Positions 14,295 through 39,982 of a DNA stretch of 64,000 nt are shown here, one piece after another. Location: contig JAEEKX010000039.1 of the NCBI GenBank assembly GCA_016288655.1, positions 1 to 64,000 of the forward strand, written 5' to 3'. The stretch comes from Bacteroidales bacterium (GTDB taxonomy: Bacteria > Bacteroidota > Bacteroidia > Bacteroidales > WCHB1-69). The first letter of the stretch is position 1; each line of letters begins with the position of its first letter. The position numbers were made by a program, and so were the translations under genes. Below the pieces are notes generated by a model. It worked only from the letters and a program-made list of their open reading frames with translations, did no database searches and had not been told where the DNA came from.

Positions 14295-14308
14295 CACTAT
14301 TTTTGGCA

Positions 14309-14347
14309 TAAAAAAAAGAGCTGACTAAAATTTAATCAGCTCTTTTG
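14309..14347 (-). terminator. Intrinsic terminator downstream of the OmpA-family gene
   Basis: AGAGCTGA(14317-14324)/TCAGCTCT(14336-14343) hairpin with an A-run on the plus strand (T-run on minus). Confidence 0.8.
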
Positions 14348-14363
14348 AATATTGTCGGTTTGC

Positions 14364-15956
14364 TTACTTCACCTTGATGTGGATGATCGCAGCTCTGTGC
14401 TCTTCCAGGGAAGGATCGGTAATGTTCTCGCTGTTCTCCTTATCACCGGCGGTGTAGGTGTGAAGTTCGAGTTGTGCCGGATCCACACCCTTCTCTTCCA
14501 CGAAGAGTCTCTTGATGCTCTCGGCTCTGCGCTGGGCCAGGTCGCGGTTGTGCTCTTCCGGTCCGAGTTTGCAGGTATAACCTTCGATCACCAAAATAAG
14601 GTTGGAGTTGGCTTTCAGTTTCTTGGCGGCCTTGTCAATGTAGTCACCGCTCTCGTTGATCTTCGGCACATCCTTGTCGAGGTCGAAGAGGATCTTGATC
14701 TTTTCAAGGTCATCGGCCAAGTCTTGAACTGCCTTCTGGTCTTTCTTGCTCAGTTTGGAGCCGTCCTCCTTGGTGTCGGGGCATGTGGGAACAATGTAGA
14801 TGTACTCGGTGTTACGATCGCAGGCGTTGCAGGTATCGTCAAGATACTTCTGGGCGGCCTCGGTCATCTTCTTGTAGAACTTCTTACGTGCGGAATCCTC
14901 AACCTGACCGCAAGCGTTGATGTGGATACCCACCTTCACGCCCACTTGCAGGTTGTGCCAGTGGAAGTTGCCAATCACATCCTCACGCAGAATGTTGGTG
15001 TACTGCGATTGGGTGCTGTTCGGGGTGTTGGAGATGACATTCTGGTCAAACAGAATGTCGTAGTTGGAACCCAGCAGACCGTTGTAGGTGAACTTGTTGG
15101 CATCGGAAGTCGGCTCGCAGAGGTTGTGGCGTTTCTCGGCTTTCGGAAGAATGTCGAGGAAGCCGTATGTGCAGTACAAGCCCACATAGAAATCGGTTTT
15201 GTTGTTGATGCGGAAGATGCCGCCGAAATCGGCCTGTAGGTCGAAGGAGCATCTCAACTTCGCGGAACCATTACCTTCAATGGTGTACTCATCAAAACCA
15301 TGGTTGACACAATATTCATGCGTATAAAGCACATCGTAATACTCATCATAACCGGAGGTCACCAGTGTTCCATCAACAATCTTGGAGCGATTGTAGATGG
15401 GGAACCACCCTCTCACACCCAACTGTGAATAGAGACCGATTCTCTCGTTGAAACGGTGCTCGAATACAGCGGTCAAGGGAACCTCAATGGCGTAAATGAC
15501 CTGTTTCTCGATCATGTTCTTGGTCTGATAGAGTAAATCGTAGTTGGTGTTGTGCAGTGAGAATTCGTTATAGAACTCCACGTCGGCTGCATCGGGGATC
15601 ACGCCGCTGATGTTCATATTGGCACGGGCGGAAAGACGCTGGATGCCAACGCCAAGACCCAAACCCCAATGTTTGTCAAACATATAGGCGTAACCCAATT
15701 CCAACGTGTGAGCGTTGGGGAGAAACTTGCTGTATTTGATCGGAACGACATCGCCATAGCCGGCGTTGACGCGGGCAATGCGATGGTAGATGTTGTTCGA
15801 GAACGCTCCGCCGGCATGGATATACACCCGGTGATGACATACTGAATCAACAACCATTGAGTCCTGCTTTACCATATCGTCATCGATTTCCTGCGCATGG
15901 CCGTAGCCGATGAAGGCGGTAAGGAGAAGACCGATTAAAAATAATTGCTTTTTCAT
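14364..15956 (-). CDS. Outer-membrane beta-barrel + C-terminal OmpA peptidoglycan-binding-like domain
   Basis: Signal peptide, aromatic-rich barrel-like region, C-terminal ILFDLDKDVPKI...LILVIEGYTCKLGPEEHNRDLAQRRAESIKRLFVEEKGV, typical of the OmpA domain. Confidence 0.88.
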   Translation of the reverse strand: MKKQLFLIGLLLTAFIGYGHAQEIDDDMVKQDSMVVDSVCHHRVYIHAGGAFSNNIYHRIARVNAGYGDVVPIKYSKFLPNAHTLELGYAYMFDKHWGLGLGVGIQRLSARANMNISGVIPDAADVEFYNEFSLHNTNYDLLYQTKNMIEKQVIYAIEVPLTAVFEHRFNERIGLYSQLGVRGWFPIYNRSKIVDGTLVTSGYDEYYDVLYTHEYCVNHGFDEYTIEGNGSAKLRCSFDLQADFGGIFRINNKTDFYVGLYCTYGFLDILPKAEKRHNLCEPTSDANKFTYNGLLGSNYDILFDQNVISNTPNSTQSQYTNILREDVIGNFHWHNLQVGVKVGIHINACGQVEDSARKKFYKKMTEAAQKYLDDTCNACDRNTEYIYIVPTCPDTKEDGSKLSKKDQKAVQDLADDLEKIKILFDLDKDVPKINESGDYIDKAAKKLKANSNLILVIEGYTCKLGPEEHNRDLAQRRAESIKRLFVEEKGVDPAQLELHTYTAGDKENSENITDPSLEEHRAAIIHIKVK

Positions 15957-16000
15957 AATATTGCTGTATTTAATTTTCTATTCAGTAATCATAAACTCCA

Positions 16001-16028
16001 GCTCTTGACGACTTGCGTCGCCAAGAGC
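16001..16028 (-). terminator. Strong hairpin with GNRA-type loop after giant ORF; weak U-tract (attenuator or processing site?)
   Basis: Minus strand GCTCTTGGCGAC-GCAA-GTCGTCAAGAGC; 12-bp stem with one mismatch, 14-40 nt after the stop codon at 16042. Confidence 0.5.
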
Positions 16029-16041
16029 GGAGAGCTTAATA

Positions 16042-19000
16042 TTATTTCACAATGACGAATTTAACCGTTTCAATGGTGTTGGTGCCGGTGGTGATGCGGC
16101 CGAAGTAGGTGCCCTGGGCCTCGAAGCCGGCCACTCTCGTGATCTGCTGCAGGTTGGTCACATGCTGTACCAGAGCGCCCTTGGCGTCGAAGATGTCGAG
16201 GACAGCGCCGTCGAGTTCTTCAGCGGAGAGCGGGAGCTCAACCGTGATCTCAACACCGACGTGTGCCGGGACAGGATAGACACGCAACTGCGGGTTGGTA
16301 GCGACAATCATTTCGCAAGTCCAGTATTCGTTGCCTTGGTCGTCGAGTACCCACAAGCTGTAGATACCGTTCAGACCGCCGATCTCCTGATAGTACTGGT
16401 GGGTGGCACCCGGGATGGGCTCGCCATTTCTGTACCACTGGAAGCTTACGAAGGTGTGACCACCGTTCGTGGCAGGATTGTTGTTGCAGACAACCACATC
16501 GTCCCACTTCTGATCCATGATGTTGATACCATTGGTAGCACCCCAGAGGATGGTGACCGTGACATCGTACATGCAACCGTCGATGACGATACCGAACTGG
16601 TAGGTGCCAGGTTCAGTCGTCGGCATCCAGATGCTGACGGTGTTGTTGTCAAGGTCAATCATACCACCGGTGTAGTCGAAGCCGATGTTGTTGTAATCAA
16701 CGATCTCGTACCAGATGGTGTCGCGGTCATCGTTCACAGTCAGGTTGTTGAACTGGAAGACTGCCAACGCGCCGACTTCATCCGGACAGATGGCCACGCT
16801 GTCGTTCACGATCTCGAACTGCGACACAACGATCGTCACCGTAGCGTCGGTGATGTCACCAACGGAGCAGTAGAGGTCGGAGAGTGCGGTCAACTGATAG
16901 GTCGTGGTCGAATTGGGCGTGAGCTCAATGGAATAGACGTTGCTGTTGGTCACATAGTTGGTGCTGATGCCGTGCGTCACATCGGTCAACGTGAAGTAGA
17001 ACGGAGCAGTACCGTGGAAGACTATCGTCAACGTAGCGTTGTCGTCAGCATCGTTCCAGCAGAGGACGTCAGAACCTTCGCCCAAGTACATCGTTGCAGT
17101 CGGGTGCTCGTGGACCGTCACCGTGGTGGCGTTCGGCGTGTTGCTCGGCATGCAGTTCGTGTTGGCCGGGGCGACATAGGTCGGATAGTAGGTGTAGATA
17201 CCAGCGCTGGTGGTGATATCGTAAGAGAGACCACCCAGACCGCCAGTGACGTTGCTCACGTCGCTCAGGTCGGAAACCGGAGCATAGACCCACTGGATGA
17301 AGGTGCCCGTCTGATGGTTGGCATCCTCAACGCCGCCTGCCACCGTAGCGAACAGGTCAACGCGATCACCCAAGCAGACGTCGGCAGGCGTTACAACCGT
17401 CTGCTCCCATCTGGGCTGGTAGAGGACGTACACATCAACATTGTCGGAGGTAGCCACACAGCCGCTGCCCTGCGGGTAGTTGACGCTTACAGAGTAGGTG
17501 TAAGGACCGCCAACCGCGTCGGTGGTGTCAGTGTGGATGGTAACCATATTGTCAAACTCGGTGATTCTGGCGTTGTTACGTCTCCAGATAATGTTCGGGG
17601 TACCAATACCGCCCTCGATGATGGCGCTCAGCTCAACATAACCGCCTTCGCACACCTGCAGCATGCCGCTGTAGGAGATGCCGACGAACGGCTGCTCGAG
17701 GACTTCGATGACAATGCTCTGGGTCTCGGACTCACAACCGGTGTTGTAGTCGTTGTGACCCTGCGTAGCATACACAGTGTAGGTGTAGGTGCCAGGTACG
17801 TTGATCGTCTCGGTGAAGGTAGCACCGTTGGCGCCAACAATCTCATGACCGTTGACCGCCCAGTGATATACCGTGTTCACGTTGGCGGCATTCGTACCGT
17901 TGCTCATGGAGGCCGTCAGGGTTACTGCACCGCCTTCGCACATCTGGTTGTTCGGGAGCGAGCTTACGATGCTGTCGATGACCGGCTCAGCAGCAACAGT
18001 GTAGGTGAACTGGGCCGTAGCGACACAGCTGTTGTACATGTTGTTGGAGGCCTCGACGGCGTAAGTGTAGGTGCCGACAGCCAAGGTGGCATCCGTGGTG
18101 AGCGTCGCAGCATTCTGCGTGGTCAGCTCAACACCGTTCAAATACCATGTGTAGTTGTAAGTGCTGGTCGGATAGACATTCGCACTCAGAACGACACTAC
18201 CGCCTTCGCAAACCTCATTGAAACCACTGATGGTTGCGGTCGGACCGGCCAGGACAACTGCCTGAACCATAGCGGAGGTGGCGTTACAGCCGCTCATGCC
18301 TGCAGGCGTGACCTCAACGAAGTAGTTGTAGGTGCCGGCGGCCAAGCTGGCGTCAGTGACGTACGTGCTGGCGTTGCTGCCAACCTGTGCGTTGTCTCTG
18401 TACCAAGCGTAGTTGTATGTCGTGCCAGGAACCGTTTCAGCAATGTCAGCCACCAGGGTGATCGTACCGCCTTGACAGACGGACTCAGCACCGAGGACAA
18501 CCACCGTAGGATCGGCAACCACATGGGCCGCAACAATGCCGGAAGTAGTCTGGCAACCGCTCAGCGTGTTGATGACAACAACTTGATATTCGTAGTTACC
18601 CACGTTCAGGGTAGCATCCGTGGTGTAAGTGGACTGGGTCGCACCGTCAATCGGCTGGCCGTTTCTGATCCACTGGTAGGTCACGTTATCGCCGTAGGTC
18701 GTATCAACCGTAGCGGTCATCGTCACCTGGCCACCGAAGCAGACATTGGCAGCGCCGTCGATCGTGGCAACCGGGGTGGCAACCACCGGGATGGTGATGG
18801 TGTTCGACGCACCGTCACAGGCCACGCCGTCCATCGTCACAATCACCTGGTATTCGTAGTTACCAGCCGTCAGGTTGGCGTCGGTTACCAAGGTGGGCTG
18901 GGTAGCACCCGGCAGGATGATACCGTTGCGATACCACTGGTAGTTGTACTGGGCATTCTCGAGACCGCCATCCACGTGGTGGACATACAGCTCGGTGGTG

Positions 19001-22000
19001 CCGCCAACGCAGACGATGCTGTCGTTGTCAACATGGATTGCAATGAACGGGGTCGGGTCGTCAACAACCGTGAAGTTGTAGATGCCCGTGTTACCCTGGA
19101 CAGCGGTGTTCACGTCGCAGCCGTAAGCATTGTCGGCGAACGACATCACAACCGTGTAGGCATAGGAACCAGCAGCCAAGGTGTCGGGGATAACGTAGGT
19201 GTTACCCGTGCCAACCTGCTCGCCGTTGTTGAACCAAGTGTAGGTCGGAGTGCCAAGACCGTTGATCTGGGCGACACCACCTTCGTAGGAAGCGGTCAGC
19301 GTAGCCGTACCACCCACACAGACGGTGGAGGCACCAGCGTTGGTGACATCAACCAAGGTGACGATCGGGTCAGCAACCACGGTCACAGGAACGGCCTCAC
19401 CCATCGTGGAGGTGATACAGCCAGCAGCACCCTCAACGATCACATGGATCATATATGGGGTCTCTCTGGCAGCCAGGCCCTGAGCGATGAAGACGTTGGT
19501 GTCTTGACCCACCGGCTGGTTGTCGATGTACCACTGATAGGTGTAGTTGTCGGCAGGATCAACATTGGCAGTCAGCATCACATTGCCGCCCTCGCAGACC
19601 GTCTGAGAACCAGTGGTGGTGACGGTGATGGTAGCATGCTCGTTGACAGTCACAACAGGAGCGAAGGCCTCGGCAGACGTACAGCCGCTTGCAGCCAGCG
19701 TGACAACCGCGCTGTAGGTGAACGTGGTCTGGTCGTCAACGATGGTCGGGTAGTCGGTGAACGTATTGGAGGTGATACCCGGCAGCAGAACGCCGTTTCT
19801 ATACCAGGTGTAGATAGGATCACCCAGTTCAGCATCGTAGTTGCCCGTGGCGGTCACAACGACCTGTCCACCGTCACAGATAACCTCGTTGCTGACCGTG
19901 ATGTCGGTGATGACCGGATCAGCGTGGACGGTGATCGTATAGACATCGGAGGAGACGCAGTCGGAAGTGGTCTGTCTCACGATGACGGTGTATTCGTAGT
20001 CGCCATCAAGCAAGTTGTCGGGCGTGGTGTAAGTGGCCTGGGTGGCACCAGCGATGTTGACGCCATTCAGTTGCCACTGGTAAGTCAGGAACTCAGTGTT
20101 GTAGTCGCCGAGCGTAGCCGTCAGCGTGGTCTGGCCGCCTTCGCAGATGTCATTCTCGGTAACCGTGATGACAACCTCAGGAGCAGCATTGACCATGACG
20201 TTGAACGGAGCGCTCACGACGCCGCAACCATTCTCGTTCGTGATGACGGCCGTGAAGGTGTAAGGATCAACACTCGGAGCCAGCGTCATATCGAGGACAT
20301 TGGTGTTCTCGCCAGCCAAGGTCTCGTTGAAGAGTCTCCATTCGTAGTTGTATCCGTCAACCATATCGGATGTGTCATTGACATTTGCAGTCAAGTGGAC
20401 CGTGGTGGCAGCCACACCGGAGCCGCAGATGACAGGATCACCGGCGATCACAACCGTGGCGTTACGCAACACAGTCACGTTGATGGTCGAGGAGTCGGTC
20501 ACCACCGACTGGCAGCCGCTCGCCGTCAGGGTAGCGACAACCGTGTAGGTGTAGTTGGTGACATCGTTATCGACCGTCACTTGAGATTCATGCAAGGTGT
20601 TGGTGTTGGCACCCGCGATCACGACTCCGTTCTTGGTCCACGTGTAAGTCACGTCGCCAAGGATCTCGTCGTAAACTGCCGTAGCAGTCAGGGTGAACTC
20701 ACCACCTTCGCAGATGACAGTGTCCTCATCGCTGATTTCAACCGTAACCACCGGATCCGGATGGACATTCACGGTGACGAAGGCGTTGCTGATGCAAGAG
20801 GTCGTCGGTTGTTCAACGATAACTTCAAACACCGTGGTGCTGTCGAGACTGGTGGTGTACTCAGGCGAGGTGGCACCCGGGATGGTGTCGCCGTTGGCAA
20901 CCCACTGATAGGTCAGACCAGCGATGTTGGCGTTGTCGAGGTGTGCGCTGACGGTGACATTACCGCCTTCACAGATGTCGTACTCCGTGCTGAGAGCCGT
21001 CACAACAACGGGCTCGTTGACCAGAACTTCGAACGGAGCGCTCGTCGTGGTGCAACCATTCTCATTGCGGACAATGACCGTGAAGATGTAAGGTTCGTCG
21101 TTGCTCGGGAGGACAGTGTCAATTGTATTTTCAGTACCCACCGTGAGGTTGAACAGTCTCCATTCGTAGGTGAAGCCGTCAACGTCGGCAACCGTGTCGT
21201 TCACATTGGCCGTGAGGATGACGTGGTCAGCACCAACGCCGTTGCCACAGATGCTGTGGTCACCAGCGATTTCAACGGTCGGGTTCGGGAGAACCGTCAC
21301 GATCATCGTGGAGGAGTCGGTGATGACGGACTGGCAACCGTTAGCCGTCAAGGTCACGAGGACCTCGTAAGTGTAGGTCGTCACGTCGCCGTCAACGGTC
21401 ACCGGGCTTTCGGTCAACGTGGCCTCAGTGGCGTTGGTGATTTCAACACCATTTCTGAACCAGGTATAGACCGGAGTACCCAGGATGCTGTCGTAGGTAG
21501 CCGTAGCAGTGATGGTGAATTCACCGCCCTCACAGATCGTAGTGTCTTCGTCGCTGATAGCAACCGTGACAGTAGGATCGGCGTGGACGTTCACCGTGTT
21601 CTCACCGTAGGCAACACAGTTGGAAGTGGGCTGATAGACGCGGACAACATAGGTGTGGGCACCCACAGTGTCGAGCGTGGTGATGTAAGTGGACTGGGTG
21701 GCACCCGCGATAGCGTTGGTGGTGTCGCCTTCGTACCACTGGTAGGTCAAGTTCGGCATGTTGTAGTCGCCGATGTTGGCGTAGAACGTCACTTCACCGT
21801 ATTCGCAGATGTCGTACTCGCTGACCGTCACATTGATGTCGGCGGTATCGTTCACATAAACATAGAACGGAGCGCTTTCGTTCGTGCAGCCATTCGGGTT
21901 GTGGACGATGACGGTGAAGATGTACGGGTTATCGCTGACCGTCAAGTTGTAATCAAGCACCACGCTGTCGGCAGCGCCGTTCACATTGGTGTCGGTAGCG

Positions 22001-25000
22001 TCAATCGTACGGTTGAACAGTCTCCACTCGAAGGTGTAACCGTCAACGTCGGTGACCGTGTCGTTCAAGTTGGCAGTCAGGACAGTCGAGACGGTGTTAG
22101 CACCGGCGCCGCAGATGATCGGGTCGCCTTCGATCTCAACCGTGCTGTTCGGATAGACATGGACGTCGATGGTGGAGGAGTCGGTGATGACGGACTGGCA
22201 GCCGCTGGCCGTCAGAGTCACCAGGACTTCGTAACGGTAGTTGGTGATGTCACCGTCAACCGTCACCGGGCTCTCCGTCAGGACTGCGCCAGTGGCGTCG
22301 GCAACTTCAACGCCGTTTCTGTACCAAGTGTAGGTGGGTTCGCCGAGGACAGTGTCATACACTGCCGTAGCCGTCAGGGTGAACTGGCCACCTTCGCAGA
22401 TGTTGGTGTCAGCATCGCTGATGGCAACCGTCACCGTAGGATCGGCGTGGACATTCACCGTGACCGTAGCATTGGAGATGCAGGAGGTCGTCGGCTGATC
22501 CACGAGAACCTCGAAGGTCGTCGTCGAATCCAAAGTAGTAGTATAGGTGGCCTCAGTAGCACCGTCGATGGTGTCGCCATTGGCAAGCCACTGGTAGGTC
22601 AAACCTTCAATGTTGTAGTTGTTCAGGTGAGCAGAAACCGTGACCGTACCACCGACACAGATGTCTGCCTCAGTCGTCAGAGCAACAACCTCAACAGCTT
22701 CGTGGACATAGACCTCGAAGGGCTCGCTCACGGTCGTGCAGCCATTTTCGTTGGCCACAATGGCAGTGAAAATGTAGGGCTCGTCGTTCGGCATGAGGAA
22801 GGTGTCGAGGACATTGGTGGTCGCCTGATCAATCGTAGTGTTGAACAATCTCCATTCGTAGGTGAACTCGTGGCTGTTGGTAACCGTGTCGTTCACGTTG
22901 GCCACCAGGTGGATGGTGTCAAGACCAGCACCGCTGCCACAGATGTTGTGGTCGCCCTCGATCTCGATGGTCGGGTTCGGGTTGACCGTGACAGTGACGG
23001 TGGAGCTGTCGGTGATGACAGACTGGCAACCGCTCTGCGGCAAGGTGACCATGACGGAGTACTCGTAGGTGGTGACGTCGCCGTCAACCGTCAACGGGCT
23101 TTCAACATAGATGCTGTCATGAGCATCAGCGATTTCAACATGGTTGCGATACCAAGTGAAGGTCGCAGGTCCGAGGATGCTGTCATAGACCGCAGTAGCC
23201 GTCAGGGTGACTTGACCACCGTCGCAGATGACAGTGTCGTTGTCGTTGATAGCCAAGGTCACTACAGGATCCGGATGGACGTAGATGGTGATCTCGTTGT
23301 AACTCAAGCAGGAACTGGTGGTCTGGACGAGGTTGACAGCGAAAGTGGAGGTGCTGTCAAGCGTCGTGGTGTACTCAGCAGAGGTGGCACCCGGGATGGT
23401 GTCGCCATTCACAATCCACTGGTAGGTGAGGTTGTTCACATGGTAGTCGCCCAAGTTGGCGAACAGGGTGACCTCGCCGCCGACACAGATCTCAGTCTCG
23501 CTGGCAGTGATCACAACGCTCGTGGTGTCATTCACATAGACCGGGAACTCTTCGCTGACGGTGGAGCAGCCGTTCTCATTCCATACGTGGACGGTGAAGA
23601 CATAGGGCTCAAGGCTCGGAGCGACCAGAATGTCGAGGACATTGCTGTCGGCGCGACCGATGATGCTGTCTTGAGCTGCGTTGATCGTACGGTTGTAGAG
23701 ACGCCACTCGTAGGTGAAGCCATCGACGAAGGCGCTGGTGTCGTTCACGTTGGCAACCAAGTGGATGGTATCAAGTTCGTTGCCGGCACCGCAGATGACC
23801 GGGTCGCCCTCGATCTGGACCGTAGCGTTCGGGAGAACCGTCACGTTGATGGTCGAACTGTCAGAGACCGTGCTGGCGCAACCAGAAGCAGTCAGGGTGA
23901 CATAGACACCGTAAGTGTAGTTGACGCTGTCGTTATCAACGGTGACCGGATGGTCAACGAAGACGCTGTCAAAGGTGTTGTCGAGGACAACGCCGTTTCT
24001 ACTCCAAGTGAAGGTCGGGACACCGAGGATGCTGTCGTAAACCGCGGAAGCAGTCAGCGTGAACTCGCCACCGGCGCAAATGACCGTGTCAGAGTCGCTG
24101 ATCGCGAGGGTGACGGTCGGATCTTCATGGACGTTGATCGTGATCTGATCAATGTCGAAGCATTCACTCAACGTTCTGAACACCTTGACATAGTAAGTCG
24201 TGGTGGTGTCGATGTTGGCAGCAGTGTAGGTCGGCAGGGTGGCGCCGTAGATGGCGTTGGCCTGGGTGACGCTGTTCTCGTACCACTGGAAAGTAAGGTC
24301 TCCGATGTGATCATCGTCAGAAACCATGTGGTAATCCTCAAGGTTGGCGGTCATGGTAACCGTACCACCGACGCAAATCTCGGTTTCGGTAGCAGTGACA
24401 GAGACCACCGGAGCTTCGTGGACATAGACGTCGAACGGTTCGCTCATCGTGCGGCAGCCATTGCCTCTGGTGACCTCAACCTGCATGTGGTAAGCATTCG
24501 GTCTCGGGTAGAAGTACTCGCTGAAGTATCTGCTGTCACCATAGCCATAGGCCATGTTGTCGCGGATCTGGCCGGATTCGTACCAAGTGAAGTGCAGGTT
24601 ACCAACCGTGATGGAACTGGTATCGACATTAGCCATGACGAAGACAGGATCGGTCTGGCAGACGTACGGGTCGCCAGTGATCTCAACTCTCGGGTTCATG
24701 TAAACATTCAGTCTGTCAGCGGAGGTGGGCTCGGAAGTACAGCCAGACGGAATCTGGTGTGCAACGGCGGTATAGACATAGTAGCTGTCGTCGTTGTCAA
24801 CGGCAATCTCATTCAGGTTGTCGGTGAAGGTCTCACCGGTGACGCCTTCGATGAGTTCGCCATTTCTGTACCAAGTGTAGTAGTACGGGTAGTCGGCCGT
24901 GTCAACACCACCGTGAGTGTGGGCGGTGATGGTCGGTTGACCACCGTAGCACATTTCATAGAAGTCAAGGGTTACACTGTCAACAACCGGAATCTCGTGG

Positions 25001-28000
25001 ACACGGATCTCAATGCTGTCAACGTTAACGCACTCGGAACCAACCTGGTAGATCTCGACGAAGTACATGGTCGTGGTATCCGGGGTCATGGTGACGATAC
25101 GCTGCATGTCGCCGTCGATCGGGTTGTTCAGACTGTCCTTATGCCATCTGTACATCAGGTTGGTGAGGTTGTAGTTGTCGATGTTGGCAGTCAACACCGT
25201 GCTACCACCTTCGCAGATGTCTTCCTCGTAAGCGGTGATTTCAACAGCAGGCATCGGGTTCACAGTCAGTCTGTAAACGTCGCTCATGCTGACGCAACCG
25301 AGGTCATTGGCAACCACGACAGTGAAGTTGTAACTATGGTCGCGCGGCTCCAACAGGGTATCGAACTGAGTCATACCCAAACCATCGGCGATGGTGTCGT
25401 TGTCGAGCTTCCAAGTAAAGTTCAGGTTGGCCGTCGGATACTCGTCAGTAACGTTGGCATAGAGATGTACGCTGTCGTACTGGCAGATCAACGGGTCGCT
25501 GGAGATGACTACGTACGGGTTCGGGTTAACACGCAGGTAAGCAGCGGCAGTGCTGTCGGAGACGCAGCCTGAGATATCCTGACGGACAACAGCGGAGAAG
25601 ACGTAGTCGGTAATGTTATTGTCAACAGTCAGCGGGCTGACGACGAAGGTGGCACCGGTTTCGCCCTCAACGAGTTCACCGTTTCTGTACCAAGTGTAGA
25701 TGTACGGGACGTTGGCCGTGTCAACACCACCATGAGTGTAGGCAGTGACGGTCACTTGACCACCGTCGCAAATCTCGTAGTCGCTCAGGATGACGCTGTC
25801 GATAACAGGTCTTTCGTTCACCTTGATGGTGATGGTGTCGTAAGACATACATTCGGAACCGACCTGATAGACCTCCACAGCGTAACGGGTGGTGGAGTCA
25901 GGATAGACAGTCAGTTCGTGCTGCATGCCACCATAGATCGTGTCGCCGCTTTCGACGTTGATCCATCTGTACATCAGGTTGGTCAAGAAGCCGTTATCAA
26001 CGTTGGCTCTCAGGATGGTGGAACCCGTCTCACAGATCGTGTCTTCGAAGGCAGTGAGTTCAACCACCGGACGCGGGTTGACGGTGACGCTATAGACAGC
26101 GCTCTCGGTTACACAACCATGTTCGTTGGAGACAACAACCGTGAAGTCGTAACTGTGGTCACGCGGTTCGACCAGCGTGTCGAAGGTATCCATACCCAGA
26201 CCGTCAGCAACAGTGTCGTTGTCAAGCTTCCAAGTGAAGTTCAGGTTGGCGGTCGGATACTCGTCGGTGACGTTCGCATGGAGGATAATATGGTCGTCTT
26301 CGCAGATCAGAGGATCGCTGGAGATGACAACCTGCGGGTTCGGGTTGACTCTCAGGATGCTGTCGGCGTACTTACGCTCGGACTCGCAACCAGAGGCAGC
26401 CTGGTGAACCGTAGCAGAATAGACGTAGTCGGTGATGTTACCATCCACAGTCAGCGGGCTTTCCGTGAAGGTGGAGTCGGTAACGCCTTCTATCACTTCG
26501 TTATTTCTGTACCAAGTGAAGACGTAAGGAGCGATATCGGTGCTGACGCCGCCCATCGGGTGAGCAGTGATGGTGACCTGACCACCGTCGCAAATCTCAT
26601 TGATGGAGAGTTCGATAGTGTCGATGTAGGGCACCGGGTTGACGATGATTCTGTAGGAGCCGAAGGTCTCGCAGTCAGAGGTCGTCTGGAACACGCGGAC
26701 GAAGTAGTTCATCGTGCTATCCGGGACAATCGTCAACTGAGACTGGGTGGCACCCCAGATTTCGTTGGCTGCAGTGGTATCGTTCTTGTACCATCTGTAG
26801 GTAAGGGCATCAGCGTTGTAGTCACCGATGTTGGCAGTCAGAGTGATGCTGCCACCTTCGCAGATCGTATCTTCGCTGGAGGTCACTTCAACGATGATGG
26901 TATCGTTGACATAGACATAGAACGGAGCGCTCTCGGTGAGACAGCCGTGAGGATTGTTGACCACAGCCGTGTAGATGTACGGATGGTCTTGAGCCGGACG
27001 AGGATCAATGATCGTGTCGGCACCCACGCCCGTGCGAGGAGCACGGATGGTATCGTTGTAGAGCAACCAGGTGTAGGTCAGTTCGGCGCCGAAGTAGTCG
27101 TTGGTGACGTTGGCGGAGAGCATGATGACGGAGTCTTCGCAGATGATCGGGTCGCCAGCGATGACAACAGTCGGGTTCGGGTAAACCGTAAGAGTGTCAG
27201 TGGCGAAGGTCTGTGCGGAGGTACAGCCGGAGGAAACCTGGGAAGCGATAGCGCTATAGACATAGGTCGTGATGTCGCCATCGACGGTCATCGGGCTTTC
27301 GGTGAAGGTGGAGTCGGTGATACCTTCCATCAAGATGCCGTTGCGGAACCAAGTGTAGGTATAAGCATCGCTCGGGATACCTTCAGAGGTGTGAGCCGTG
27401 ACAGTTACCTGACCGCCTTCGCAGATATCGTCAACCGAGATGGTCACAGAATCCACAACCGGATCCGGAACCACGGTCACAGTGTAACCGTCGGTGGCGG
27501 TGCAGAGAGCGTCATTAGCGACAAGTGAGGAGAAGACCTCCACATAATAGGTGTGGGTCTCGTTCAGCGTGTCGGTATAGGTCGGGTTGGTGGCACCCGG
27601 GATTCTGTTGGTTTCAAGGATGACATCCTGGTACCACTGATACTGGAGGTACTCAAGGTTGTAGTTGTCGAGGTTGGCCGTGAAGGTCACTTCGCCACCA
27701 ACGCAGACGCTGTCTTCCGTAGCGGTGATATGGACCACAGGAGCTTCGACCACAACGACCTGGAACGGATCGCTGAAGCCAGAGCAACCGTTGGCGTCAA
27801 CTGCCTCAACCATGAAGTTGTAGGCAAAGCCGGTGGAGACTGCCAAGGAATCCCAGTGATAGAAGCGGTAGGACTGGTAAGTGTTGTGCAACTGACCATC
27901 AAGGTACCAGTTGTAAGTCGTCGTCAGCGGAGCCACATCACCGTTCACCCATGCGAACAGGTTGATAGGCATGTACTGGCAGACGTACGGGTTACCAGAG

Positions 28001-37000: not shown

Positions 37001-39816
37001 TCGCTGACAACCACACAGCCATCAGGGCCGGTGACAGCGACAGTATAGATGTACGGATATTCACGATAATCTTTAGCTTTGCTGAAGGTGTATCCCGTCT
37101 GGGTGGTGTTGACGTTGTCCTCACGCCATACCAAGTTGTAAGTACCAGCGATGGTATCATTCAAAGTAGCGGTCAAGTTAACCGTATTTTGATCAGGGTT
37201 ACCGCAAAGGAGCTGGTCGCCGCTGATGCTGACGCTCGGGATATGGTTGACGCGGATGGTATCGTTCGGAGTGGAGTGGGCTACACAACCACTGGTGGGT
37301 TGTTCGACGGTGACACTATATATATATAAGGTAGTGTCGTTGCCGGTGGCCACTTCATCGTAGTAACTGGCAGTGGTAGTAGTGCCCATGACGAGACCGT
37401 TTCTATACCAAGTGTAGATGGCAGTACCGGCAGCGTCGTCAAGGGTGGCGGTGGCTGTCAGTTCGACTTGCGAGCCGGAGCAGACAAAGCCAGCGGGATT
37501 CGTGGTGAGATCGACGGTGGGCATCGTGCGGGCCTTCACCTCAAAGGTGGTGTCAGCTTTGCAGGAACTGGTGCCCGGATAGTGTTGGGTCATGTGGACG
37601 GTATAGACACCAGCTTCAGTGGCAACGTAGGTGGCACCCGTGCCAACTTCACTCCCGCCGAACTCCCAAGTATAGGTGACGCCAGGGATAGTCTCGTCGG
37701 AGGTCGTAGCCATCAGGGTGACAGAACCACCTTCGCAGAGAGCCGAGTCGCTCGCGTTGATGCTGACGATCGGCATGGGATCAACTTGGGTGAAGAAGAT
37801 GTCGGAAGCCATAGCCCGACAACCGATGGCGGAAGCCATACCCATCACAGCATAAATCTGATGAGCATCCTGCTGAGCGGCTAAGTCGATGGAAAGAATC
37901 GGGAGGTTTTCACCGGTTTGAATATTCTCATCGACGAACCAAGTCCAACCATTGGAGGCAGTCACGAAGATTTCCGGAGCACCCACAGCGTGATAATTTG
38001 CCGTGGTACCTTCGCAGATGCGAGAGGGACCGGTAATCACGATCTCTGTCTGCGGGAAGACGGTGACGACCGGAGAGGCGGCTGTCTTGCTGCCGCAGTT
38101 GTCGGTCGTAGTCAACACCAACGTATAGGTGTATTCCGTCTCCGCGTTGGAGTTGTTCTCCACGTTGTCCACGAAGGACGCGGTGGTTGCCGGAAGCAAC
38201 TGGCCGTTTCTATACCATGTATATATATAGTTGGTACCGGTCAAGCCCGTGGCCTCGACATGGATGGGAGCACCGTTACAAGCCAATACATTTGTGGCAC
38301 CACCTTCAATCTTCACAACCGGGGTCTCCATTTCAGGAAGAACCTCGATGGTGGCCGTGGCCGTGGCAGAGCATTGTGCATTGCCCGTCACAGTGACCGT
38401 CACACCCAGAGGGGCGGTGAGGTTGCCCGAGACTGCTGTGGCACCCGTACCGGTGACACCCGTTGACCAAGTATAGGTCGGGTAATCGGAAACGTAACCA
38501 TTGACCGTTACGGTAGCCGTACCCGGAGCGTCGTAGCAGGCAGGTGTCGTGGTGAGCGTCGCGGTCGGCATGGGATAGACCGAAACCAACAGCGGCTCAC
38601 TGACGAGGTGACAGTTAAGGGCTGCGTCGTTGAGGTTGAGAACAATCTCGTAAGGTCTATCTGAAGGAGCCAGACCACTAATGGTTGTTGCGGAACCATT
38701 ATTGCCAGCAGCGCCATCCACAGACCATGTCAGAGCACATTCGGGTACAAAAACATACAAACCTTCGTAATTGGAGGTAAGAGAGATGTTAGCAGTACTA
38801 TTCGTACAGAAAACCGCCTGACCGGGCGATCCGATGACAGGAGTGATGGGAGTCTCCACGGAGAAATCGGCATTGGTGGCAGAGCAACCGCCAGCATCTA
38901 CAACGGTGTAAGAGACAGTTCCCGCATCATACGGATTGTCAATCCAGGTTGAGTTGGAGGAGCCGAGGAGGGCACCATTGCGATAGAAGGTGTACGGCGC
39001 GGCACCGCCAGTGGCCGTCAACAAAAGTTGGCCACCAGGACAGATGATGGGGTCTGCAGTGGGGTCACAAGGCGGCAAAGCAAATTCCACGTTGAGAGTG
39101 GGAGGGGTGGCGCCGGTGAAATCAACGGTATAGACGGCGGAGGTGTCGTTGCAGAGGTCGGAGCCCTGATAGACGGCGATGGCCTTATAGTCACCTGCCG
39201 TAGTGGCAACATAGGTGTTGGAGGTACCCGTGTTGGCGACGACGTTGCTGCCGAGCATCCAGACCCAGTGGTCAACCGTGGCCGGGCTGGTCGTGGTGGC
39301 GGTCAGGGTCTGCTGGGTGCAGGCGTGTTCCGGAGTGCCGGTAATCGTCACGGTGCCTCTGTCCACACTTCTCAGCATGAAGACGGCGGAGGTGTCGGCG
39401 GGGCCGACACAGGCGCTGCCCTCCATCCGTTGTACAACTACTTTATAATAGCGGACAGGGGTGACGTCACTCATATTGACATGCAGTTCCTGTATATTCT
39501 GTGCACCGGCGACCCCGCTGAACCCACCACCGTGGGATGTGCTGGACAGCCAGGTGTAAGAATATGTCGTTCCGGTTGTGAAGGGATCAGTGTCCACAAA
39601 CACAGCATGCAACGTGACCATTGCATTTGAGCATGCGAACTCCGGACCCTCAATGCGGACAACAAGGTTCTGAGTGGCATTGACACGATTTACTGCATAT
39701 ACCCCGTCTGCGCGGTCAGTATAATTATTCGCAAGCATTCCTGTGGTGCCCGGAGACGAGTAACCATGATAAGCATACATGAACACCATCAGGAAAAAAA
39801 TCGTAAACTTTTTCAT
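16042..39816 (-). CDS. Giant (7924 aa) secreted multi-Ig-like-module protein with T9SS type-A sorting domain; putative adhesin or surface-layer protein
   Basis: Single uninterrupted ORF; signal peptide MKKFTIFFLMVFMYAYHGYS. About 80 modules with paired Cys, ICEGGxVTLTA...YTWYRNGxxIxGAT...SGC. C-terminus LRVYPVPAHVGVEITVELP...LDIFDAKGALVQHV...GTYFGRITTGTNTIETVKFVIVK is a type-A CTD. Confidence 0.95.
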   Translation of the reverse strand: MKKFTIFFLMVFMYAYHGYSSPGTTGMLANNYTDRADGVYAVNRVNATQNLVVRIEGPEFACSNAMVTLHAVFVDTDPFTTGTTYSYTWLSSTSHGGGFSGVAGAQNIQELHVNMSDVTPVRYYKVVVQRMEGSACVGPADTSAVFMLRSVDRGTVTITGTPEHACTQQTLTATTTSPATVDHWVWMLGSNVVANTGTSNTYVATTAGDYKAIAVYQGSDLCNDTSAVYTVDFTGATPPTLNVEFALPPCDPTADPIICPGGQLLLTATGGAAPYTFYRNGALLGSSNSTWIDNPYDAGTVSYTVVDAGGCSATNADFSVETPITPVIGSPGQAVFCTNSTANISLTSNYEGLYVFVPECALTWSVDGAAGNNGSATTISGLAPSDRPYEIVLNLNDAALNCHLVSEPLLVSVYPMPTATLTTTPACYDAPGTATVTVNGYVSDYPTYTWSTGVTGTGATAVSGNLTAPLGVTVTVTGNAQCSATATATIEVLPEMETPVVKIEGGATNVLACNGAPIHVEATGLTGTNYIYTWYRNGQLLPATTASFVDNVENNSNAETEYTYTLVLTTTDNCGSKTAASPVVTVFPQTEIVITGPSRICEGTTANYHAVGAPEIFVTASNGWTWFVDENIQTGENLPILSIDLAAQQDAHQIYAVMGMASAIGCRAMASDIFFTQVDPMPIVSINASDSALCEGGSVTLMATTSDETIPGVTYTWEFGGSEVGTGATYVATEAGVYTVHMTQHYPGTSSCKADTTFEVKARTMPTVDLTTNPAGFVCSGSQVELTATATLDDAAGTAIYTWYRNGLVMGTTTTASYYDEVATGNDTTLYIYSVTVEQPTSGCVAHSTPNDTIRVNHIPSVSISGDQLLCGNPDQNTVNLTATLNDTIAGTYNLVWREDNVNTTQTGYTFSKAKDYREYPYIYTVAVTGPDGCVVVSDPYPVYVNDTIVVGVNASSNKVCAGKEVVLNAAVQDNFDQVTFRWYTVNGTTETEIPNEYTSTLVQYPTANTIYRVRVLQNSTFCTAQGDTAIEVVTAPTMTLAVTPAGTDSICEGGQFTLELQPSDVAPAGTYNWYKNNNLVATNTNNYFTDSPVAIDGDRTMYTYAVQFVQDSTGCEAFQYDTVYVFPNLNVVISGDQTVCDGEFNVNLTATVNGMAIPSTNVTATWYRDGIDASTLGTITNGTDNSVYVANHDAVRTGETSSTYIYSVEISRGNGCTTLSADYPVTVYSAPLIQMTANDTTICAGGDVTFTANVTNNNIAGLSYEWKVNNVVVDGAASNTMTYLFQDASEYVVVVNALQNLSGCTATDTIKVTPKEQLTVNIDANNDTVCAGQQIMVAATPTSFIAAEPITYTWYKNGAVMENETDSVIYDTPEAQSIYGTTYVYGVAISQPSSACGSVIVYDTVSVKAHPTVAISGDAMICHNDSIGLVAHVNDYDETMGELHFQWRLANADITGATNDTLSETNRPASNEPYIYTVVVTNENAGCAVESDPYYVYVNDTLNVVVTSDYDSICENAEITLTAHLGDYNSENLIYRWFAEDVEIPGATERVITVVPQNVGVNHYRVDLLQTTSECAASGKDSVKVLAAPDLTLDVNMTMVCSGGEVTLVASATQEGTFAWYKNGVLIEGATQQLLMDSPIAIDGDSTAYVYSVVFSSNIPGCMATKDTIVYAYPNPTIVISGDPIICDGNNIDLTANINGYDTTTTNVHYQWMLANTNLTDASATTNHLTYLAANSTDPYQFTVMAYDNSGCRSISDIYYVYVNDSIQVVVTADDTTICENGTVTLTANLGDYNDDALIYQWYTGSVAPANAIAGATSATLTTNVSATETYYVEVIQTTSDCHASGSQTIHTEQAPAIANITLSDTAVCDAYQIQITATIDPAQPGIAGEPYIYTWYRNGQLIEGVTDSTFMDAAPLTNADSSVYVYSATVRQASSSCVSEMKTSAQSLTVFSLPTVQLSGDASLCYGDTVILWAHIQNHNAVPFDMAHITWAWLLDNNDVSSNPMLGNMINPGTIYYKENRINDVQTEPYNYSIRINAGHGCTVTSDPYPVTIFNLPDVYVTVDDATICEGGEITATANIGFNNTHDTAFYDANDLTYVWSVDGTVVDGAVSSTLTTTLTTAGTIPVKVQVLANSTRCLKENAVNVEVSTIPVISSIELSSNDICEGTQVTVTGHASDGVTGEAYIYTWYRNGEVIEGVTDSTFVDAPVLSDVDANSFVYTAVVRQASAGCTSLVAASDTLTVSQNPTVMISGDAILCKDSTVILDAHINDTLIATGALTYQWRMFNDNLIDGGDTTGATTDHLEIAHMATQDEPYIFTVEVANDNGCRSLSEPYYVYVNDTILVEVTADFDSVCTNGAVTLTANLGNYNTDNLVYRWYTVEGSVETEIVGATSRELTVHPEATTDYLVRVMQTTSECEAEGTKQIKVIDLPELTLTLVPQDTICVGGEVTLTATELPATYTWMKNGVVIEGANTNVLSDSPIAVDNDITTYNYAVLCFTEIPGCQSTTIDTMITVFPNHSVTISGDPILCNTNNVQLLATLHDTVQNATYEYQWMVDGVDVAGANNADFDQAMTERDYPYIFSVRVTNNISGCVAVSDGYYVYVDANPEVVVSASDTDVCENGVVTLTAHLGNYNTPNLTYVWKVDGTEIAGANEATYVATIDASHTYTAEVTQANSGCVGTGDITITKHDIPVVVLNIGTGSVTDSTICEGGQVTLIAHATADAELGDITFAWYENGVLLQGVTDSTYTVSPLVVDVDQTAHIYSVVAIAAAPACASEPATATVRVSANPEVLLYGHSIVCEAPVGVNNVQVNARIVTDIPFDPMMEHHWYVDGVEVIPAMGDEVPMLDGYFLSDHVDLQMDPHTYQLEVISSNGCRVTSDPFMVQVLAKPVVNVLVDDVDSTICDGGQITATAYLANPNATNITYQWLVDGDSIIGATTPILTTTLTGVATHEITVSVNQLVSDPDRYACRNTDVVEVEVVAAPEITEVEASADTICEGYQVNIHAVASNGVAEDGYTYTWYRNGAEMTGLVDSVIYDTPVATDGDTAMYIYTVVAHQISSGCNSLPMSDTVYVFPNPTVWISGDQIICDHGDIELHANLNDTALNLTFNYEWRLSNTTIGNNSRDLTIHDTTFRDEPYIFTVTVSNDRGCAVTSEPYYVYVNDSVRVEVTHEPDSVCPGAEVTFTANLIDYNADNLIYRWSEIRGTSVGDTTEIHGATSREVVVRPTTEIYRYQVEILQTTSMCKAIGFDSVKVLSPATLAWEEVSDTALCFGGEVSLTVTPPTNLEGYYTWYRNGQQITGANLNHLNDSPIAVDGDSTAYEYAVVFNPVVDGCRSEMIDTIVYVYPSPVIEITGDAIVCTRTDSNIYLIAHVSDTSVASRDFTYTWFESNREITATENLASEDTLLIHGVEFRDEPYIFTVVMSNNRGCTVTSAPYNVYVNDTVLVEVTSSVDSVCAGGEVTLEANLGDYNADNMIYRWYAKEEGAADSTEIWGGTSRIITVNPIKTTYYSVLVRQTTSECFAIGYDTIKVIAPTAIAINLGVDEGRDTLCNGGEVTLVATGEHGEALVGGSFIWTRNGVVIPGAEGPSITESPLAIDNDSTAYIYQVMYALDVPGCRADTADTTVIVYMNPTVQISGDPIICNVEGTENNLVLVANVNDTVHHDLTYEWRLANRTIEGATEDTLRAHLDASDNPYLFTVQVSNHRGCTTLSEEFPVYVNDTASIQVVVTSDYDTVCVGGEVTLTAHLADYNSGSLTFQWYKRDTTATGADTLIAIDYGTEPILHYTMTDSLWNYFELHITQTNSGCEAWGIDSVYVWPRVPYVISHVHALNIANNSHFICDGGEVDVQVELSDLNGNRIDSTLFTYNWYRNGFEHPFLSGPWFRESPLTVDGDTTHYQYSAVIVLDIPGCEYSQMNFSDTVTVVRNPIVYISGNPYVCQYMPINLFAWVNGDVAPLTTTYNWYLDGQLHNTYQSYRFYHWDSLAVSTGFAYNFMVEAVDANGCSGFSDPFQVVVVEAPVVHITATEDSVCVGGEVTFTANLDNYNLEYLQYQWYQDVILETNRIPGATNPTYTDTLNETHTYYVEVFSSLVANDALCTATDGYTVTVVPDPVVDSVTISVDDICEGGQVTVTAHTSEGIPSDAYTYTWFRNGILMEGITDSTFTESPMTVDGDITTYVYSAIASQVSSGCTSAQTFATDTLTVYPNPTVVIAGDPIICEDSVIMLSANVTNDYFGAELTYTWLLYNDTIRAPRTGVGADTIIDPRPAQDHPYIYTAVVNNPHGCLTESAPFYVYVNDTIIVEVTSSEDTICEGGSITLTANIGDYNADALTYRWYKNDTTAANEIWGATQSQLTIVPDSTMNYFVRVFQTTSDCETFGSYRIIVNPVPYIDTIELSINEICDGGQVTITAHPMGGVSTDIAPYVFTWYRNNEVIEGVTDSTFTESPLTVDGNITDYVYSATVHQAASGCESERKYADSILRVNPNPQVVISSDPLICEDDHIILHANVTDEYPTANLNFTWKLDNDTVADGLGMDTFDTLVEPRDHSYDFTVVVSNEHGCVTESAVYSVTVNPRPVVELTAFEDTICETGSTILRANVDNGFLTNLMYRWINVESGDTIYGGMQHELTVYPDSTTRYAVEVYQVGSECMSYDTITIKVNERPVIDSVILSDYEICDGGQVTVTAYTHGGVDTANVPYIYTWYRNGELVEGETGATFVVSPLTVDNNITDYVFSAVVRQDISGCVSDSTAAAYLRVNPNPYVVISSDPLICQYDSVHLYANVTDEYPTANLNFTWKLDNDTIADGLGMTQFDTLLEPRDHSYNFTVVVANDLGCVSMSDVYRLTVNPMPAVEITAYEEDICEGGSTVLTANIDNYNLTNLMYRWHKDSLNNPIDGDMQRIVTMTPDTTTMYFVEIYQVGSECVNVDSIEIRVHEIPVVDSVTLDFYEMCYGGQPTITAHTHGGVDTADYPYYYTWYRNGELIEGVTGETFTDNLNEIAVDNDDSYYVYTAVAHQIPSGCTSEPTSADRLNVYMNPRVEITGDPYVCQTDPVFVMANVDTSSITVGNLHFTWYESGQIRDNMAYGYGDSRYFSEYFYPRPNAYHMQVEVTRGNGCRTMSEPFDVYVHEAPVVSVTATETEICVGGTVTMTANLEDYHMVSDDDHIGDLTFQWYENSVTQANAIYGATLPTYTAANIDTTTTYYVKVFRTLSECFDIDQITINVHEDPTVTLAISDSDTVICAGGEFTLTASAVYDSILGVPTFTWSRNGVVLDNTFDSVFVDHPVTVDNDSVNYTYGVYVTLTASGCASTVSDSSTINVTVLPNATVQIEGDPVICGAGNELDTIHLVANVNDTSAFVDGFTYEWRLYNRTINAAQDSIIGRADSNVLDILVAPSLEPYVFTVHVWNENGCSTVSEEFPVYVNDTTSVVITASETEICVGGEVTLFANLGDYHVNNLTYQWIVNGDTIPGATSAEYTTTLDSTSTFAVNLVQTTSSCLSYNEITIYVHPDPVVTLAINDNDTVICDGGQVTLTATAVYDSILGPATFTWYRNHVEIADAHDSIYVESPLTVDGDVTTYEYSVMVTLPQSGCQSVITDSSTVTVTVNPNPTIEIEGDHNICGSGAGLDTIHLVANVNDTVTNSHEFTYEWRLFNTTIDQATTNVLDTFLMPNDEPYIFTAIVANENGCTTVSEPFEVYVHEAVEVVALTTEADICVGGTVTVSAHLNNYNIEGLTYQWLANGDTIDGATEATYTTTLDSTTTFEVLVDQPTTSCISNATVTVNVHADPTVTVAISDADTNICEGGQFTLTATAVYDTVLGEPTYTWYRNGVEVADATGAVLTESPVTVDGDITNYRYEVLVTLTASGCQSVITDSSTIDVHVYPNSTVEIEGDPIICGAGANTVSTVLTANLNDTVTDVDGYTFEWRLFNRTIDATDTNVNGAADSVVLDYNLTVSDNPYIFTVIVHNPNGCTNESAPFYVYVNDTADINVTVSEYDICEYGEVTFYANIGDYNMPNLTYQWYEGDTTNAIAGATQSTYITTLDTVGAHTYVVRVYQPTSNCVAYGENTVNVHADPTVTVAISDEDTTICEGGEFTITATATYDSILGTPVYTWFRNGVEITNATEATLTESPVTVDGDVTTYTYEVLVTLTANGCQSVITDSSTMIVTVLPNPTVEIAGDHSICGNGVGADHVILTANVNDTVADVDGFTYEWRLFNLTVGTENTIDTVLPSNDEPYIFTVIVRNENGCTTTSAPFEVLVNEPVVVTALSTEYDICEGGNVTVSAHLDNANIAGLTYQWVANGDTIPGATSPEYTTSLDSTTVFEVIVEQPTTSCISNAFVTVNVHPDPVVTVEISDEDTVICEGGEFTLTATAVYDEILGDVTYTWTKNGVVIAGANTNTLHESQVTVDNDVTNYTYTVVATLTASGCQSVVTDSSTINVTVLRNATVVIAGDPVICGSGVAATTVHLTANVNDTSDMVDGYNYEWRLFNETLAGENTNVLDMTLAPSVDPYTFTAVITNENGCGVVSAPFNVMVNAAPEVVITVTENDICEGGQTTLTATLGDYNTEFLTYQWQLNGVNIAGATQATYTTPDNLLDGDYEYTVIVRQTTSDCVSSDVYTITVHADPVITDITVSNEVICDGGQVVVTATGNYDAELGDPIYTWYRNGVLLPGITSNTFTDYPTIVDDQTTFTYSAVVTLAASGCTSAEAFAPVVTVNEHATITVTTTGSQTVCEGGNVMLTANVDPADNYTYQWYIDNQPVGQDTNVFIAQGLAARETPYMIHVIVEGAAGCITSTMGEAVPVTVVADPIVTLVDVTNAGASTVCVGGTATLTASYEGGVAQINGLGTPTYTWFNNGEQVGTGNTYVIPDTLAAGSYAYTVVMSFADNAYGCDVNTAVQGNTGIYNFTVVDDPTPFIAIHVDNDSIVCVGGTTELYVHHVDGGLENAQYNYQWYRNGIILPGATQPTLVTDANLTAGNYEYQVIVTMDGVACDGASNTITIPVVATPVATIDGAANVCFGGQVTMTATVDTTYGDNVTYQWIRNGQPIDGATQSTYTTDATLNVGNYEYQVVVINTLSGCQTTSGIVAAHVVADPTVVVLGAESVCQGGTITLVADIAETVPGTTYNYAWYRDNAQVGSNASTYVTDASLAAGTYNYFVEVTPAGMSGCNATSAMVQAVVLAGPTATISGFNEVCEGGSVVLSANVYPTSTYNYTWYLNGVELTTQNAATLTTDATLAVGTYTYAVEASNNMYNSCVATAQFTYTVAAEPVIDSIVSSLPNNQMCEGGAVTLTASMSNGTNAANVNTVYHWAVNGHEIVGANGATFTETINVPGTYTYTVYATQGHNDYNTGCESETQSIVIEVLEQPFVGISYSGMLQVCEGGYVELSAIIEGGIGTPNIIWRRNNARITEFDNMVTIHTDTTDAVGGPYTYSVSVNYPQGSGCVATSDNVDVYVLYQPRWEQTVVTPADVCLGDRVDLFATVAGGVEDANHQTGTFIQWVYAPVSDLSDVSNVTGGLGGLSYDITTSAGIYTYYPTYVAPANTNCMPSNTPNATTVTVHEHPTATMYLGEGSDVLCWNDADDNATLTIVFHGTAPFYFTLTDVTHGISTNYVTNSNVYSIELTPNSTTTYQLTALSDLYCSVGDITDATVTIVVSQFEIVNDSVAICPDEVGALAVFQFNNLTVNDDRDTIWYEIVDYNNIGFDYTGGMIDLDNNTVSIWMPTTEPGTYQFGIVIDGCMYDVTVTILWGATNGINIMDQKWDDVVVCNNNPATNGGHTFVSFQWYRNGEPIPGATHQYYQEIGGLNGIYSLWVLDDQGNEYWTCEMIVATNPQLRVYPVPAHVGVEITVELPLSAEELDGAVLDIFDAKGALVQHVTNLQQITRVAGFEAQGTYFGRITTGTNTIETVKFVIVK
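19950..37300 (-). repeat. Higher-order tandem repeat, about 840-bp superunit (three Ig-like modules A-B-C), about 21 copies, within the giant ORF
   Basis: The B-module signature (ISGDPIIC / PYIFTV...VYVNDT) recurs near 20440, 21270, 22130, 22960, 23800, 24670, 25500, 26310, 27155, 28000, 28885, 29750, 30555, 31420, 32230, 33060, 33920, 34760, 35570, 36420 and 37220. Confidence 0.88.
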
Positions 39817-39974: not shown

Positions 39975-39982
39975 CAAAAATA
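39975..39982 (-). promoter_or_regulatory. Putative -7 element for the giant ORF (TATTTTTG on minus)
   Basis: Plus CAAAAATA preceded by TTG, i.e. minus TATTTTTGCAAG; about 160 nt upstream of the start codon. Confidence 0.45.

Follow-up and report, generated by a model that had tools for sequence, protein, structure and literature searches.

A candidate two-gene surface system: a giant Ig-repeat T9SS protein and an OmpA-type barrel protein

How might a surface protein of several thousand residues be held in place, and does the gene directly behind it contribute? Both questions are raised by a locus in the 64,000-nt stretch of Bacteroidales DNA analyzed here (the window), in which an open reading frame (ORF) for a giant protein is followed, on the minus strand, by an ORF of OmpA type. 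A sequence-only reading of this DNA had placed the second gene 85 bp past the giant's stop codon on the same strand, and the gap, from 15957 to 16041, is indeed 85 nt long (Table 1). Dedicated outer-membrane partners have been published for type B T9SS cargo only, with type A cargo sharing PorV (PMC12618676, PMC10994853). The locus runs against the rule that such partners belong to type B cargo only, and our literature search, covering open-licence papers, found no report of a type A cargo with a barrel encoded beside it and conserved along with it. We think it likely that the two genes form an operon for a giant Ig-repeat surface adhesin and a dedicated outer-membrane receptor or anchor. The pairing suggests that giant proteins may be held at the cell surface in a manner not described before.

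The source draft genome is 2.26 Mb in size and 93% complete. Its closest named relatives, in a scan of named genomes run with the closer-related alignment, are uncultured Bacteroidales, chiefly from rumen and other gut samples.

Table 1. Features of the giant/barrel locus, in window positions
Feature	Position	Strand	Basis
Intrinsic terminator downstream of partner gene	14306..14346	-	15-pair stem and T-run
Partner gene, 530 aa: barrel and periplasmic OmpA domain	14364..15956	-	Pfam, AlphaFold2, Foldseek
OmpA-like periplasmic domain (PF00691)	14415..14657	-	52.6 bits, cut-off 27.2
Cys462 codon, at diaminopimelate-binding Asp position	14571..14573	-	phmmer alignment to 3td3
Cys349 codon, just past last strand	14910..14912	-	Cys in 32/32 having a residue there; absent only in L079
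Barrel region, residues 42-347	14916..15833	-	AlphaFold2 strands; part kept with giants in relatives
Cys40 codon, just ahead of strand 1	15837..15839	-	Cys in 31/32
Intercistronic hairpin (core 16001-16028), directly after giant stop	15992..16038	-	Folding, covariation
Giant Ig-repeat T9SS protein, 7,924 aa	16042..39816	-	Begins with ATG; frame uninterrupted
T9SS type A C-terminal sorting domain (CTD), distinct subclass	16045..16299	-	TIGR04183, tree
Penultimate Ig-like domain ending in T-C motif	16300..16554	-	Conservation, alignments A5/A6
N-terminal signal peptide of giant (MKKFTIFFLMVFMYAYHGYSS)	39754..39816	-	By eye; similar in orthologues
Promoter-like TAttTTTG, 166 nt upstream of giant ATG	39975..39982	-	Conserved position

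Promoter-like element, hairpin, and terminator

The promoter-like element ahead of the giant recurs among relatives, with a TAnnTTTG found within 200 nt of the ATG in 16 of the 17 giants checked, in most cases between -166 and -189. The minus strand of the whole window holds only 14 such sites. None had been seen between the two genes, and we likewise found none in the gap or in the last 300 nt of the giant gene; only 2 of 33 gaps in relatives contain one.

The gap itself contains a hairpin that had been described as lacking a strong U-tract. This description is accurate: the folding energy of the gap is -32.2 kcal/mol (z = -7.4), 0 of 200 shuffles did as well, and no U-tract follows. Among 27 sequences of the hairpin core, all 10 pairs showed compensatory changes and 93% of cells pair; the covariation score was 0.724, compared with 0.309 for shuffled sequences and no more than 0.20 when slid. 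The hairpin matched no known RNA family. The terminator proposed behind the OmpA-type gene can be seen directly as a long stem, at 14314..14346, followed by a T-run; its strength rests on these two features, because shuffles gave as many terminator-like sites in our terminator scan.

Cotranscription of the two genes, as originally suggested, is supported by the promoter-like element conserved ahead of the giant and by the lack of one in the gap. Taken with the covarying hairpin and the one terminator, these features make giant and partner look like one operon, with one transcript carrying a conserved internal RNA element. We imagine that the hairpin probably separates or stabilizes two messages, which would let the short partner be produced at a level suited to the 24-kb message of the giant.

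The complete giants vary in length between 3,666 and 9,397 aa. Preserved across this range are the signal peptide and the C-terminal module of the giant as well as the hairpin and the length of the intergenic gap, which measures 80 to 96 nt in 20 of 20 giants compared. The gene downstream of the pair differs among relatives, so what is conserved is the pair itself and not a wider syntenic block containing it.

The giant and its C-terminal module

The giant is made up of Ig-like domains of ~90 aa, arranged in a diverged three-domain super-repeat of ~280 aa. The Ig repeats first read from the translation were recovered as Pfam Ig_7, Ig_3, and PKD_3 matches; a search of the giant for near-exact tandem repeats found none, the repeats having diverged. 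At the other end from the C-terminal module, orthologues share the start pattern MKKF.IFLLMAFLY.GTCQARSE. The best PDB sequence match of the repeats was the grappling hook protein GhpA of Aureispira (phmmer, E=3.5e-26), like the giant a T9SS-secreted chain of Ig-like domains of giant size from Bacteroidota. GhpA is also the top fold match of the C-terminal module. However, the A5 profile, built from the last 170 aa of the giants, has no match in GhpA, and we rejected the GhpA C terminus as a relative of the giant module. Antisense within the giant gene lies a 3,136-aa ORF (16162..25572, plus strand), which shows no sign of being a gene and probably arises from the codon usage of the repeats.

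Assignment of the giant to the T9SS was upheld by TIGR04183, which matched its last 200 aa with 34.1 bits (cut-off, 23). All 10 of the C-terminal modules scanned with this model matched, 9 of them over the cut-off, and the giant gave no match to TIGR04131, the type B CTD model. The giant CTD carries the motif YPVPA ... GTYFGRI.TGTN.I.TVKFVIVK and, in the alignment, retains C-terminal Lys residues. In the CTD tree, the domains of paired giants group into a single clade that excludes 30 other CTDs from the genome (support 100/99), a grouping favored by the fact that the paired CTDs are orthologues.

The giants' last 170 aa, comprising the penultimate Ig domain and the CTD, are 51 to 68% identical across genera. 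Identity in the penultimate Ig domain is 51 to 59%, vs 33 to 43% for repeats farther upstream. In published structures of ordinary type A CTDs, the translocon-facing surface is poorly conserved but for one Lys (PMC10994853). High conservation of the C-terminal module is what a further binding partner would produce.

Elsewhere in the window, a 1,557-aa ORF (51515..56188, minus strand) with no Pfam match at 1e-5 ends in a sub-threshold T9SS CTD; it adjoins an ORF for a TonB-dependent receptor (56211..59930).

Pairing of giant and barrel across genomes

We searched 104 genomes of the family with the partner protein, and an A5 search with the giants' C-terminal module agreed closely. A strong giant signal, one in each case, was present in 36 genomes, and the partner was adjacent in 36/36. 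Barrel-containing partners number 41, the other 5 lying at contig ends (G003, G017, G072, G078, and G100; a giant stub is retained in G072), and the remaining family genomes have neither giant nor barrel. Co-conservation, set beforehand as the refutation test, is exceptionless among complete family loci: across the 104 genomes, none of these has a giant without a barrel or a barrel without a giant. One apparent exception, G018, was set aside as merely an OmpA domain on an unrelated protein.

Pairing extends beyond the family. A profile search at the order level covered 393 genomes, whose neighboring genes were then inspected, and a CTD lay directly upstream in 36 of 43 barrel loci (a few loci being counted twice). 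These CTDs were detected with a short profile built solely from ordinary CTDs of the window's genome, and several of the loci that it missed show an upstream T9SS signal by eye. The A5 profile gave 8 weak matches outside the known pairs of the family, 7 of which have a barrel relative directly downstream. In a wider sample of the phylum, 15 other genomes contained the barrel, every one of them belonging to the same class, and 18 of 19 class-level barrel loci lie behind a matching C-terminal module (A5 E-values, 1e-18 to 1e-31). One of the 7 weak A5 matches with a barrel behind them, in G102 (C131, L222:1-3191), belongs to a 14,117-aa open frame; this frame ends in the giant-type module, and a gene for a 544-aa barrel-OmpA protein comes next.

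The OmpA domain behaves differently from the barrel. Barrel relatives follow a T9SS-signal gene both with and without an OmpA domain, whereas OmpA-only proteins were found directly behind such a gene in only 1 of 25 cases. By this comparison of sequences, it is the barrel that is conserved as the partner, with the OmpA domain an optional addition. Relatives in the order and phylum often lack the OmpA domain and yet are paired; as the conserved element it was rejected, given OmpA-only relatives without giants and barrel-only relatives with them.

These patterns bear on a simpler account in which the two genes are only co-expressed, the barrel being a general OmpA-type envelope stabilizer made together with a large surface load and never touching the giant. 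OmpA proteins are common envelope stabilizers, and operon membership by itself is no proof of contact. Against this, OmpA-only relatives do not track giants and OmpA-less barrels do; only 1 of the 6 OmpA domains in the genome is paired with a giant in this way, and the genome's other giants are not so paired. We consider co-expression without contact distinctly improbable. Pairing is not a rule for all giants of this genome, an idea that we rejected because type A giants of 6,694, 4,118, 3,537, 3,188, and 3,087 aa have no such partner.

Giant and barrel also diverge together. Distances between CTD modules and between barrels correlate with r=0.90 (76 pairs) and, for 42 distant pairs, r=0.85, with a permutation maximum of 0.26, and paralogous pairs within a genome show about equal divergence in the two parts; G059, G102, and G103, for example, have three pairs each. 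Since the two genes are linked, the correlation shows evolution as a unit and is not proof of binding: neighbors duplicated jointly would diverge in step even if their products never bound, which tempers the receptor/anchor reading.

The barrel protein and routes to the surface

The AlphaFold2 model of the partner, built with 33 sequences, has 8 main strands, a linker helix, and the OmpA domain; its confidence is moderate (pLDDT 71, pTM 0.51), a point against leaning heavily on an anchor. Best PDB matches of the barrel in Foldseek were E. coli OmpA, OmpX, Ail, and NspA, with low TM-scores, and those of the tail were OmpA/Pal domains; PorP/SprF and PorV structures were absent among the best 50 Foldseek matches of the partner. 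The partner has a weak Pfam match to an outer-membrane barrel family, a PDB sequence search with the barrel family found no structure, and NCBIfam T9SS models, including PorV, PorP/SprF, and PorG, gave no match to the window barrel at cut-off. The partner thus models as an 8-stranded OmpA-type outer-membrane barrel with a periplasmic OmpA domain. The modeled fold contradicts a SprF/PorP-like barrel with an OmpA tail; we rejected a SprF/PorP identity, given that PF11751 lies elsewhere in the genome, the predicted fold is of OmpA type, and NCBIfam gave no match.

The likeness to SprB-SprF of Flavobacterium johnsoniae is one of layout: a giant with a T9SS signal, a dedicated barrel immediately downstream, and strict cognate pairing. 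The window pair differs in its type A signal, its barrel, modeled as 8-stranded and OmpA-type, and the lack of a C-x-C tail, so the earlier suggestion of an arrangement distinct from SprB/SprF stands on the type A CTD, the absence of a PorP/SprF match, and the predicted OmpA-type fold. Both routes seem to be present in this genome. It encodes T9SS machinery (a GldK homologue, 531.9 bits), with 89 TIGR04183 matches, mostly above cut-off; TIGR04131 matches number 13, of which 12 are above cut-off and all lie outside the giant, and the 3 PF11751 (PorP/SprF) matches all lie away from the window barrel. An SprB-like route and the giant/barrel route therefore coexist, because PorP/SprF proteins and type B CTDs lie elsewhere. 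One of the type B CTDs (G000:C31:25791-26054, L245) belongs to an open frame of 7,695 aa, which makes another giant in the genome, with an SprB-type signal.

PorV and SprF are larger barrels, with 14 strands. It is worth asking whether the window barrel could nonetheless be a dedicated shuttle replacing PorV, one that would dock on the SprA translocon, take up the giant, and remain attached to it, as SprF does for SprB. Strict one-to-one pairing, co-divergence, and a distinct CTD subclass would all be expected of such a shuttle, and there is precedent in the type B/PorP-SprF pairs, in which the barrel is encoded downstream (PMC12618676). However, the window barrel models as 8-stranded, with OmpA, OmpX, and Ail nearest and the larger PorV and SprF unrelated, and it matched neither PorV nor PorP/SprF models at cut-off; the CTD passes the type A model and retains its C-terminal Lys residues. 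We regard a PorV-replacing shuttle as unlikely and prefer a receptor or anchor, because neither PorV nor SprF resembles the predicted 8-stranded barrel and because the CTD has stayed type A. The published route for type A cargo, by the general shuttle PorV to lipopolysaccharide or into the medium, needs no partner barrel, which also speaks against an anchor (PMC12618676).

The cysteines flanking the barrel offer another view of its function. Cys40 and Cys349 are lost together in L079, which suggests, from the alignment, an intramolecular disulfide closing the barrel ends. One can also envision that cysteines of the barrel or the OmpA domain bond the PorK/GldK ring or a track, so that the giant is moved or force-loaded, by analogy with PorG and SprF, in which cysteines in the tail after the barrel bond GldK (PMC12635249). 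Like PorG, the partner is an outer-membrane barrel with a Cys just past its last strand, nearly invariant in this family; GldK is encoded in the genome, and Cys462 in the OmpA domain is widespread. Yet Cys349 is single in the partner tail, with no C-x-C motif, distant paired barrels lack it, and its joint loss with Cys40 in one lineage fits an internal disulfide. Unlike PorG, moreover, the partner does not match the PorG model at cut-off and is encoded beside cargo rather than machinery. A link to the PorK/GldK ring is, to our minds, very improbable.

The OmpA domain was expected to bind peptidoglycan. The PF00691 domain is there, but Cys462 aligns with the Asp of GHTDNTG in Acinetobacter baumannii OmpA (3td3), with Arg477 kept. 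This Asp contacts diaminopimelate in that protein. Cys occupies the position in 31 of 33 orthologues and in 47 of 55 paired OmpA domains vs 2 of 26 unpaired ones (Fisher p=1e-11, a statistic that ignores relatedness). Replacement of the Asp makes simple wall binding by this domain doubtful, and the missing contact residue counts against the anchor as well. In G018 (C212, L250:4046-5444), an OmpA domain of the partner family with Ser at the ligand position sits on a different protein away from giants, from which it appears that the domain has been swapped between architectures.

Other systems share parts of this design. As in E. coli OmpA and OmpA-like proteins of Bacteroidota, a barrel, here modeled as 8-stranded, precedes a C-terminal OmpA domain; the partner differs from them in its large extracellular loops, its constant pairing with a T9SS giant, and the Cys in its ligand site. 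Static wall anchoring has been proposed for a type B CTD protein with a PorP-like barrel and a PorE-like anchor (PMC9143113, PMC12618676). The Fjoh_3952/3951/3950 type similarly combines a barrel partner with an OmpA-fold periplasmic domain; in the window, unlike there, barrel and OmpA domain form one polypeptide, TPR and propeller are lacking, and the wall-binding Asp is replaced.

For the receptor/anchor reading, we imagine that the giant would cross the outer membrane via the T9SS; because its signal is still of type A, the general shuttle PorV would probably take part. The giant's conserved C-terminal module would dock on the large extracellular loops of the barrel, which would hold the several-thousand-residue fiber at the surface, and the OmpA domain, where present, would add a periplasmic tether.

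More tentatively, and with somewhat less than even confidence, we propose that Bacteroidota at large contain an unrecognized class of distinct type A cargo, each received or anchored by a co-evolving 8-stranded barrel with an optional OmpA domain repurposed by the change from Asp to Cys. If it exists, such a class would overturn the view that the general shuttle PorV alone serves type A cargo, and many surface proteins of gut and environmental Bacteroidota would be cognate pairs with a predictable anchoring route. Members of such pairs would so far have been recognized only as matches to generic models, "type A sorting domain" on one side and "outer membrane beta-barrel/OmpA" on the other; the rule for finding them in genomes is simple, namely a C-terminal module and then a barrel.

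Two PorP/SprF loci of the genome also drew notice. At G000:C8:22350-24600 (L121, L136), directly behind a 1,820-aa T9SS protein, an ORF for a RarA/MgsA-like ATPase continues in frame, with no stop, into a PorP/SprF barrel that has its own signal-peptide-like start; this 762-aa frame may reflect a genuine fusion, an overlap of two genes, or a misassembly. At G000:C29:68326-70772 (L134, L138), a PorP/SprF gene, whose product has two separated Cys in its tail, lies immediately upstream of a gene for a GldK/GldJ-like lipoprotein, and the two could be a gliding-type remnant.
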